From Acidobacteriota bacterium (GTDB lineage Bacteria > Acidobacteriota > UBA6911): a stretch of DNA of 61,351 bases. The position numbers and the translations under genes are program-made. Positions 50,622 to 56,749 of the stretch are shown piece after piece (the stretch's first letter is position 1; every line of letters begins with the position of its first letter). The DNA lies in NCBI GenBank assembly GCA_031271905.1, contig JAISUT010000005.1, forward strand, positions 1 to 61,351. The letters run 5' to 3'. Below the pieces are notes generated by a model. That model was not told the DNA's origin, did no database searches, and worked only from the letters and a program-made list of their open reading frames with translations.

Positions 50622-51794
50622 CTATTTGCGCACCTGCCCGAACAGCGCCTCCAGCCGCAGCCGGATGCGCTCCACGTCGCCCGTCGAATAGTCGGTCTCG
50701 ACCTTGAGGAACGGCAGCCCGTGCCGCTCCCGCACATGCGCCCCCACCCGGTGCGACTCGATGTTGAAGGTGTGGCACGCCTGCAAGACCACGTCCACCG
50801 CCACGTCGGGGGCGTAGCGGGCGACGAGGTCGTCGATGCCCTCGATGCGCAGGTCGTTCGGGGTCATGCACGAACAGGGGACGGTCAGATAGGCGCGGGC
50901 GACCGCCGCCAGCGGATCCGGCGTCCCTTCCTCGAACTGGATCCGGAAGGGCTTCATGCCGCTGCACCCCTCCAGCCCCACGACCACGCCCCCCAGCTCC
51001 TCGATGACCCGGAACACCTTCGCCGAGTCGCCGTTGACCGGGCAGCCGGTCACCAGCACCCGCGGAGAGCGGGCGTCGCCGAAGCCCCGCCCCGCATTGA
51101 CGCGCCCGTCGAGCCGCTCGAACACCGGGGCGAGGAACGCCTCCAGCTCCGGCAACGTCGCGACCTGCGCCACGGCGATGACGTCGTACATCTCGCTCCA
51201 GCTCACCGCCGGGGGGGTGTGGGCGACGTAGTCGAAAAAGCGCAGCATCAGGCGGTTCTTCGCGTTGGTCTCCCGCAACTCGCGCTCGACCGCCTCGTCG
51301 GCGATCGTCGTCTCCAGCGTCTCTTCCAGAAACGACTTCAACTTGCGGAGCACCGCCTCCCAATGCGCCTGCGCCTGTGCGCCCTCCGGCATCTGGGGCA
51401 GGTCGCAGACGTGCATCGGCTTCACCGAGGCGATCAGCTCGTACATCTTCTTCTTGCCGTCGCAGGTGGTCTCGGCGACCACGGCCTCCGCCAGCTTGAA
51501 GAAGGGGCAGGTGTCGGTGGCGATGAAGCCGTAGCTCGACTTGATGAGAGGGCAGAGGTTGGCGGGCAGCACCTTCTCCGCCTCCGGTATCGTCTTGTTC
51601 GCGTAGGCGCAGAGGGTGATCGGCACCGCGCCCGCCGCGCGGATCAGCTCCACGGGGGCGTAGGTGCAGTACACGCCCACCCCCCTCACGCCGGACTCGC
51701 GCTTCTCCAGCAGTCGCGCCAGCGAGCGTTTGAGCGGCAGCCCGGTGTATTCGTCGTCGATGAGGGGCGCGAGTGGTTCGACAGGTTGCGTCAT
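50622..51794 (-). CDS. Double-cubane-type / 2-hydroxyacyl-CoA dehydratase-like anaerobic reductase
   Basis: The 390-residue protein belongs to the HgdB/HgdC-like iron-sulfur family: GVGVYCTYAPVELIRAAGAV at the front, then NLCPLIKSSYGF, TDTCPFFKLAEAVVAETTCD, VLVTGCPVN and VPCSCMTPND with a final QACHTFNIESH. The evenly spaced Cys residues are those that bind [4Fe-4S] or a double cubane. True dehydratases need two such subunits and an ATP activator; here it is single, as in the double-cubane-cluster anaerobic reductases. It shares a strand with yedF 51 bases upstream, and I recall such reductases near selenium genes in clostridia. The substrate is unknown. Confidence 0.82.
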   Translation of the reverse strand: MTQPVEPLAPLIDDEYTGLPLKRSLARLLEKRESGVRGVGVYCTYAPVELIRAAGAVPITLCAYANKTIPEAEKVLPANLCPLIKSSYGFIATDTCPFFKLAEAVVAETTCDGKKKMYELIASVKPMHVCDLPQMPEGAQAQAHWEAVLRKLKSFLEETLETTIADEAVERELRETNAKNRLMLRFFDYVAHTPPAVSWSEMYDVIAVAQVATLPELEAFLAPVFERLDGRVNAGRGFGDARSPRVLVTGCPVNGDSAKVFRVIEELGGVVVGLEGCSGMKPFRIQFEEGTPDPLAAVARAYLTVPCSCMTPNDLRIEGIDDLVARYAPDVAVDVVLQACHTFNIESHRVGAHVRERHGLPFLKVETDYSTGDVERIRLRLEALFGQVRK

Positions 51795-51845
51795 GATGGC
51801 AGTCTCCTTCCGTCAATCAAAAAAAGCAAAGAAATCAAAAGGCGC

Positions 51846-52448
51846 CTAGATGGTGATCACCTTGCCGGCGCGCAACCAGGCTTCGGCGATGGCGTACATG
51901 TTGGACACCTCGCCGACGGCGAGTTTCTCCTTGAGCCCGAAATGCCCCAGGCAGGTGCCGCAGACCAGGAGCTGAGCCCCCTTCGCCGCGAGCGCCCGCA
52001 AGTCTTCCAGCACCGGGGAGCCTTCGACGGCGAGCTTGACGCCGCTGTTGAAGAACACCAAGGTGTCGGGCTGCGGTGCGACCTCCCCCAGCGTGTGCAG
52101 GAACGTGCGCACCAGGAGCTGTCCCAGCTCCTGGTCGCCGCGCCCCATGCAGTCGCTGGGGATGGTCAGCACCAGCGGCCCGGCCGGGCCGCCCCCCGCG
52201 CAAGCGACGGGCGCCTCCGGCGCGTCCGCCAGCGCCCCTTCCCCGGCGATGGCGAGGTAGATGCCGTCGGCGCGCTTCTCGCGCGTCACCTTGAAGCCCT
52301 CCTTCTCCGCCATGCGGGTCACGTTCTGCTCGGCGGTCTCGTTATCGACGATGGCCGTGAGGCGGGCGTGGTCTTTCAGCGCCTTGCGGGTGAGCAACAC
52401 GGGTTGCGGGCAGGCGAGCCCGCGCGCGTCCACTATCTTTTCCGACAT
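51846..52448 (-). CDS. yedF: Selenium-metabolism sulfurtransferase-like protein YedF
   Basis: The 200-residue protein fuses a TusA-like domain (about 1-70, ARGLACPQPVLLTRKALKDH, conserved Cys about 13) to a DsrE-like domain (about 90-200, VLTIPSDCMGRGDQELGQLL, FFNSGVKLAV and CGTCLGHFGL). This two-domain form is the 'selenium metabolism protein YedF', found mainly in bacteria that use selenium. The start at ATG 52448 has AAGGAGG five bases upstream. It is followed by the double-cubane-like reductase and, about 3 kb away, by the predicted selenocysteine protein. Its biochemical role, possibly Se or S carrier, is not established. Confidence 0.88.
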   Translation of the reverse strand: MSEKIVDARGLACPQPVLLTRKALKDHARLTAIVDNETAEQNVTRMAEKEGFKVTREKRADGIYLAIAGEGALADAPEAPVACAGGGPAGPLVLTIPSDCMGRGDQELGQLLVRTFLHTLGEVAPQPDTLVFFNSGVKLAVEGSPVLEDLRALAAKGAQLLVCGTCLGHFGLKEKLAVGEVSNMYAIAEAWLRAGKVITI

Positions 52449-52901
52449 AGATGCCTCCTTACAAATGGTTCGTAATCGCAACAATGGGTCGAATGGATCA
52501 AGCCGGCGCTTCACGCACCGGAGCAAGGTGCCGGGGCGGGGTTTCCGCCCCGCACCCCCACGCCCTGTGAATCGTTCACTTGGGGGAAACCTTAGATTGC
52601 AAAGATTGCAACGGCACGCCGACGCCGAGGCCGCCGGACTCAGGTGAAGCCCAGCGTCGGGGATGGGAAGCAGCATATGGCAAACCGTCTCTTGTCCATA
52701 CGCGGACGATTCTGCCACCGAACGGGGGAAAAGCAAAGATGATTTTTCATGAGGGGGGGATGAGGGGGGATGGAAGGGAACCTCTAAAAACCCCGGATAA
52801 CAGCGCCAGCGCCATGTCTGCGAGCTTTTAGAGGCTCCCTGAAGAGCGAGGGGGAGGGGCGGGACGCCAGCCCCTCCCTCCGGCACCTGCTCAAGACCGC
52901 C
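52449..52901. other. Gene-free region between yedF and the TolC-like gene
   Basis: About 450 bases without a supported gene. It holds dispersed element copy C (52776-52839), about 330 bases upstream of yedF, and otherwise low-complexity G-rich sequence. The yedF promoter probably lies here. Confidence 0.5.
52776..52839 (-). repeat. Dispersed ~64-bp element, copy C
   Basis: The ends GGGAACCTCTAAAA and TTTTAGAGGCTCCC are inverted repeats with one mismatch, the cleanest termini of the four copies. Read on the minus strand it contains CTCGCAGACATGGCGC and TCCGGGGTTTTTAGAGG like copies A, B and D. Its orientation points toward yedF. Confidence 0.8.
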
Positions 52902-55328: not shown

Positions 55329-55378
55329 AGAGACATCAGGAGGGGCGCGGGGGACGCCACGCCCTCCCAGGAGGTTCA

Positions 55379-56749
55379 ATGAGAAGAAAGTCAGAGATTC
55401 TGTTGCTTTTCCTGAGCGCCGCGGTTCTGCTCGCGTTGGGGTTCACGACGAACGGCACCCGCGCCGCAGACGGCTCGAAGATCACGGTGGCATACAGCGG
55501 CAACCTGCTGGGCTACTCCGAGCCCTGTGGCTGAGCGGACACCGGCGCACAGCTCGGCGGGCTGTACAAGAAGGCGTATTATCTGGACGAATACCGCAAG
55601 ACCCATCCGGGGCTGGTGATCGTCGATTCGGGCGACCTGTTCAACGAGGACGAGGAGATTCCCGAATCGGTCGAGAAATCGGCGAAATTGAAGGCGGAGC
55701 TGTTCGTTGACATCTACAAGGCGATCGGCATCGACGCCGTCAACGTGGGCGAGCTGGATCTGGTCTTGGGCATCGACTACCTCAAGGAGCTCAGCGCGAA
55801 GCACGACTTCCCGCTCGTCTCGGCCAACCTGGTCGGCGCCGACGGCAAGCCGATCTTCAAGCCCTACGTCATCGCCAAGGCCGGAGGCAAGAACATCGGC
55901 ATCATGGGGCTGATGGGCGACACGTCGGGGTTGCCGGCCAAGGTCGGCGAGATCACCGGCGGCGCGGCCACGGTGACCGACGCGGTCAAGGCGGCGGAAG
56001 CCGTCGTGGCGGAGCTGACGGGCAAGGTCGATTACATCATCGCCCTGACGCACGAGCAGGCCAACCGCGACTGGGTCATCGCCCGCAGGGTGAAGGGGGT
56101 CAACCTGGTGGTCGGCGGCCATGACAAGCAGCGGACGCCGGACGCCCTGGAGACCGACACGTCGCAGATCGTGCGCGCCGGCGAGAAGGGGCAGTACCAG
56201 GGGATGTTCGAGGTGGATCTGGACGACAAGTCGTTCACCAACGAGCTGTTCCCCTACGGCGACGACGTCGGGAGCGACCCGAAGATCAAGGCGATGCTCA
56301 CCGCCTACAACGACAAGGTCGCCGAGATGTACAGCGGCGGCGCGAGCGCGGGCGTGAACCCGGCGGCGAACGTGGAGTTGCGCAGCGAGAAGTGCGGCAT
56401 GTGCCATGCGGACGCGCTGGCGAAGTGGAAGGCCACCAACCACGCCAAGGCGTATGCCACGCTGGTGGACAAGGCCAAGAACTACGACCCGAAGTGCCTG
56501 TCCTGCCACACGGTGCTGTTCGAGAAGCCGGGCGGCTTCAACATGACGCAGCAGCAGATGGAGCTGGTCAACGTGCAGTGCGAGTCGTGCCACGGCGACG
56601 CCTCGGCGCACCTTGGGGACATGTCGCAGAAGCCCGCCAAGCCGACCATCCAGACGTGCGTGACATGCCATGACACGGAGGACAGGAAGAAGGACGCCTT
56701 CCTCAAGAACGAGACGCTCGCCATGGAGAAGATCAAGCACACGAAGTAA
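55379..56749 (+). CDS. UshA-like tetraheme cytochrome with a predicted selenocysteine
   Basis: Reading through one in-frame TGA (55532-55534) gives a 456-residue exported protein that starts at ATG 55379 after an AGGAGG site. A signal peptide (about 1-31) is followed by AYSGNLLGYSEPCG-Sec-AD, then IVDSGDLFNEDE, a metallophosphoesterase/5'-nucleotidase-like domain (to about 310) and four c-type heme sites: C339 (CGMCH), C373 (CLSCH), C401 (CESCH) and C427 (CVTCH). Relatives in other bacteria carry Cys at the Sec position (EPCGC), which is how I recognise recoding rather than a nonsense mutation. Without recoding, translation would have to begin after the stop and lose the signal peptide, which the hemes require. 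A SECIS-like hairpin follows the TGA. Periplasmic redox function is likely; the reaction is unknown. Confidence 0.85.
55532..55567 (+). promoter_or_regulatory. In-frame TGA with SECIS-like hairpin
   Basis: Fourteen bases after the TGA, ACAGC (55549-55553) pairs with GCTGT (55561-55565) around a seven-base G-containing loop (TCGGCGG). Size, distance and G-rich loop are in the range of bacterial SECIS elements recognised by SelB. The stem is short, so recoding is predicted rather than proven. Confidence 0.6.

Follow-up and report, generated by a model that had tools for sequence, protein, structure and literature searches.

Results

The window, that is, the whole stretch of 61,351 nucleotides from an Acidobacteriota bacterium that was analysed here (assembly GCA_031271905.1, contig JAISUT010000005.1), carries an open frame from the ATG at 55379 to the TAA at 56747-56749, in which the sole in-frame TGA is codon 52 (55532-55534). 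The features of this locus are as follows:

55369..55374, plus strand: AGGAGG ribosome-binding site, read from the sequence, with GGAGG-type sites in 10/10 same-genus genes
55379..56749, plus strand: predicted gene for a UshA-like tetraheme selenoprotein of 456 residues, selenocysteine (Sec) at 52, matching NF041198
55379..55465, plus strand: signal peptide (MRRK, a hydrophobic stretch, and TRA before ADG), read from the sequence
55481..56332, plus strand: 5'-nucleotidase/UshA-like alpha-beta domain with a degenerate metal site, from PDB matches and the ligand table
55520..55534, plus strand: EPCGU redox motif, E48-P49-C50-G51-U52, with the TGA (Sec52) at 55532-55534
55549..55565, plus strand: SECIS-like hairpin with a GGC triloop at 55556-55558 closed by a stem of 55549-55555 and 55559-55565
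56393..56746, plus strand: cytochrome c554-like tetraheme domain, from PF13435, 1bvb and invariant residues

An earlier note on this DNA had described a frame with an AGGAGG site, a signal peptide and a TGA at codon 52, and this description was borne out by the sequence and by a layout kept across the genus. In all ten same-genus genes, an ATG start lies behind the GGAGG-type site and 50 to 51 codons precede the TGA, and the signal-peptide layout is the same in nine relatives. The TGA had also been placed at the second Cys of an EPCGC-type motif, which agrees with the Cys that homologues carry at this position. Moreover, comparison of the window gene with its nine orthologues revealed that changes pile up at third codon positions on either side of the TGA, and both halves are therefore translated in one frame.

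The product matched the NCBIfam model NF041198 (UshA_like_PCGU, 'UshA-like (seleno)protein') with 321.3 bits against a curated cut-off of 275. This model of 519 positions comprises the nucleotidase-like part (4-273) and the tetraheme part (about 345-518). Both halves were matched in one frame by the window protein, at 4-269 and 348-512, and the motif of the model, PCGU or PCGC, is present as P49 C50 G51 U52. Membership in NF049981 ('UshA-like (seleno)protein family 2') was ruled out, as the protein scored just 22 bits where the cut-off is 140; that family has a related fold and also contains selenoproteins, and its motif is given as CxxU, not CxU, in the accessible text of PMC13188914.

Homologues were surveyed in 396 genomes of the phylum. 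Each of the ten genomes of the genus, that of the window among them, has a copy that scores above the family cut-off and contains a single TGA. The alignment comprised 31 rows but 30 distinct genes, as L024 and L028 seem to come from a single contig. At the column of interest, 23 of the distinct genes have TGA (ten from the genus and 13 from other families) and the other seven have TGC or TGT, so that the Cys homologues that the earlier note had proposed to look for were indeed found. Cys50, Gly51 and Sec/Cys52 occur in 31/31 rows, the Cys-Gly before the TGA column being invariant. The TGA is thus not a matter of chance, because all near relatives keep it and Cys occupies precisely this column in more distant ones. 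On a tree built from the first domain with the TGA column removed, the two states required five changes, at least three of which were forced by well-supported branches, which shows that Cys and predicted Sec were swapped several times within one phylum. A separate single-protein scan of genome contigs returned only one relative, whose protein is identical to that of genome G074 and apparently derives from the same contig.

The assembly measures 3.40 Mb and is 99.8% complete. The genes selA, selB, selC and selD, whose presence had been named as a check, were all found; the pathway comprises selA, selB, selD and a tRNA-Sec with anticodon TCA (UCA). The selD gene (L021, G000:C3:17258-18190) has its own in-frame TGA within the motif GUAAK and is thus itself a selenoprotein gene. 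Of 22 additional genomes that carry a TGA copy, 21 have selA and the remaining one is 76% complete; in the three near-complete genomes without selA, every listed copy has a TGA-free frame. Two genomes, G074 and G250, each hold two selA genes above the cut-off, which may reflect contamination or duplication. In the window, a yedF gene (selenium metabolism protein, TIGR03527, 197 bits) adjoins a gene for a double-cubane-cluster reductase (NF040772, 421 bits) at 50622-52886 on the minus strand, about 2.5 kb from the selenoprotein gene.

The gene neighbourhood was rejected as a functional clue, since it consists of housekeeping genes and is uninformative. Across the genus, the selenoprotein gene is found opposite TPR, yceD, plsX, acpP and etf genes, and elsewhere it lies beside mutL, glycine-cleavage or ruvX genes; the window copy stands beside neither set.

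A SECIS-like hairpin was found at the correct distance and was judged by comparison. It starts 14 nt after the TGA and reads ACAGCUC-GGC-GGGCUGU. The spacing given in the earlier note was therefore right, but its stem of 5 bp with a G-rich loop has to be replaced by a stem of 7 bp, including one G-U pair, with a GGC triloop. With a criterion chosen after the folds had been seen (a triloop with G at the first or second base and at least six contiguous pairs) and with expectations from synonymous codon shuffles of genes that are related and not independent, fitting hairpins occurred in 21/23 TGA genes (2.1 expected) compared with 1/7 Cys genes (0.5 expected). Within the genus, the stem sequence is identical save for one outer change, and four of the five hairpin codons are fixed; for the gene as a whole, the codon is fixed in 13 of the 124 columns with an invariant amino acid. 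The sole varying hairpin codon differs only at an unpaired loop base. The stem seen in other families lies over different codons and has a GGC or GGA loop, which stands 28 nt after the TGA. In this homologous set of eight, two pairs covary, pair 2 occurring as C-G, G-C and A-U and pair 5 as C-G and G-C. The folding energy of the hairpin was no better than that of shuffled sequence (z 0.24) and was rejected as evidence for a SECIS element, and an Rfam search with the hairpin returned no family, just a chance sucC match below the cut-off. Because the criterion was set post hoc, the genes are related and the energy does not discriminate, it is the contrast between Sec and Cys genes, the fixed codons and the covariation that carry weight.

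The first domain shares its fold with 5'-nucleotidases over residues 35-347, with PDB matches to 3ivd (E 1.5e-13) and to CD73. The term 'UshA-like' was thus correct, given these matches and NF041198; as for 'nucleotidase-like', the fold is kept but the nucleotidase metal site is gone. The metal-ligand and catalytic positions considered were those of CD73, mapped through the PDB alignment. At these positions, the window protein has N42, L44, E125 and L126 instead of Asp, His, Asn and the catalytic His, so that the dinuclear metal site is incomplete and the catalytic His is missing. The ligands D86, H225 and H248 are retained in the window protein and in most of the genus and drift across the family. 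The GNHE motif is absent from every aligned homologue; D-x-H is retained in a few distant members. A canonical 5'-nucleotidase in the same genome contains NDTHSH, GNHE and GGHSH. Across the family, Gly45, Cys50, Gly51, Sec/Cys52, Gly60-Gly61, Asp83, Gly85 and Asn150 are invariant. According to the alignment, Cys50-Gly51-Sec52 sits in the loop after strand 1, beside the metal position of 5'-nucleotidases and at the entrance to the former active site. Structure prediction for two sequences gave a mean pLDDT of 47.7, which was too poor for use.

The C-terminal domain matched PF13435 (E 1.4e-16, 61.6 bits against a gathering cut-off of 20.8), and its best solved relative was 1bvb. The designation 'tetraheme' was accurate, as four CxxCH motifs start at 56393, 56495, 56579 and 56657 (C339, C373, C401 and C427), and four are present in all heme-bearing homologues. 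In 23/23 heme-bearing homologues, seven His residues are invariant, namely the four in CxxCH together with His355, His411 and His454. Seven His for four hemes are enough for three bis-His hemes, so that one heme is left without a conserved distal His.

Seven of the 31 alignment rows lack the heme domain. These Sec or Cys homologues (L035, L036, L037, L039, L041, L049 and L052) belong to other families of the phylum, score under the NF041198 cut-off and might merit a separate family. Their existence indicates that hemes are dispensable in some members and that a different electron partner can serve the Sec domain. Free-standing cytochromes were also observed, in the genome of the window (G000:C10:17174-17527) and, as frames of about 157 residues, in other genomes of the genus. 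They match NF041198 at positions 399-519, in its heme part, but have no nucleotidase-like portion, and they are possible partners.

Discussion

In this study, comparison of homologous sequences indicated that the TGA at codon 52 is almost certainly a selenocysteine codon and that the product is an exported protein of 456 residues in the NF041198 family. The selenoprotein prediction of the earlier note was thus supported by the conserved TGA, the Cys homologues, the Sec machinery and the SECIS-like hairpin. Other explanations of the TGA have been considered. An ORF from GTG 55616 does exist, and the TGA might be a true stop, with the gene broken or restarting downstream as a cytoplasmic cytochrome; however, this is very improbable and is nearly refuted, since the TGA, the start, the signal peptide and the length are conserved in ten same-genus genomes and distant homologues carry Cys at the TGA position. 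Moreover, c-type hemes need export, and a product of the downstream start would have no signal peptide. Slightly less credible still is a selenium-free product, in which Cys or Trp is inserted at the TGA under an altered code or by plain readthrough. The Cys residues of some homologues would suit this explanation, but the genome holds the full Sec pathway, and in its selD, too, a known Sec position is encoded by an in-frame TGA. The same Cys homologues would also be compatible with a sequencing or assembly error for TGC or TGT, the least probable explanation of all, which is in effect refuted by the occurrence of the same TGA in independent genomes of nine other species of the genus and in 13 sequences from other families.

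A different question is whether the nucleotidase-like domain still acts as a metallophosphoesterase, with Sec/Cys and the hemes merely regulating it or sensing the redox state. This explanation is improbable, though less so than those above. It is favoured by the 5'-nucleotidase fold, by D86, H225 and H248 in most of the genus and by D-x-H in a few distant members. Against it, the genus is without the Asp and His of the first motif and without the Asn and catalytic His of GNHE, none of the aligned homologues has GNHE, and a canonical enzyme with all three motifs is encoded in the same genome. The window protein is probably not a phosphoesterase, and hydrolysis has probably been lost, because the dinuclear metal site and the catalytic His have been dismantled.

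Under the preferred explanation, an exported selenoprotein with a redox function, SelB and Sec-tRNA(Sec) would read the TGA at 55532, directed by the hairpin at 55549-55565. The Cys-Sec pair, as a selenenylsulfide/selenol couple, would reduce or oxidise a small substrate with no hydrolysis of phosphate esters, and the four C-terminal c-type hemes would carry electrons to or from this pair outside the cytoplasm. As a whole, this is very probably the best explanation of the locus. Within it, the proposal of a Sec/Cys oxidoreductase acting on a small substrate, with a tetraheme electron relay outside the cytoplasm, is the simplest and most likely reading and has about an even chance of being right, and the suggestion that the heme without a conserved distal His serves as an electron entry or exit point, or as a second substrate site, is tentative. 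It is more speculative, and rather unlikely, that the protein is a metal-free nucleotidase fold turned oxidoreductase, with direct electron exchange between an open heme of the fused tetraheme domain and the Cys-Sec pair located in the old active-site pocket. If true, such direct exchange would make the protein a selenium-heme enzyme, with a chemistry undescribed for either parent family. The dismantled hydrolase site and the attached c554-like tetraheme domain, possibly with one open heme, favour redox assays over phosphatase assays.

The window protein is a further member of a catalogued selenoprotein family, since it matches NF041198 and proteins of this kind have been in the literature since 2008. 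In the accessible text of these sources, a UshA-like CxU selenoprotein (COG0737) already appears in the 2008 Global Ocean Sampling survey (PMC2398784) and again in reviews of 2022 (PMC9312934) and 2026 (PMC13188914), the last of which links this entry to NF041198. The motif type CxU and the parent fold listed there are shared with the window protein; no heme domain, mechanism or function is given in the accessible text of the three papers. The NF041198 model already spans the nucleotidase-like and tetraheme parts with the same CGU motif, and no structural difference separates it from the window protein, which adds an acidobacterial, genus-level set of members. What is added to the known family is the dismantled 5'-nucleotidase site and the count of exactly seven invariant His for four hemes. 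Compared with the 5'-nucleotidases (UshA, CD73; PDB 3ivd, 4h1y), the window protein has the same fold by sequence, but the metal ligands and the catalytic His are gone, and CGU and hemes replace the C-terminal substrate-binding domain. With cytochrome c554 (PF13435; 1bvb), it shares the tetraheme domain. In cytochrome c554, three hemes are bis-His and one is five-coordinate, and there are likewise three conserved extra His for four hemes. In contrast to c554, the domain of the window protein is fused behind a Sec-containing domain, and the resemblance does not imply the reaction or the partner of c554.
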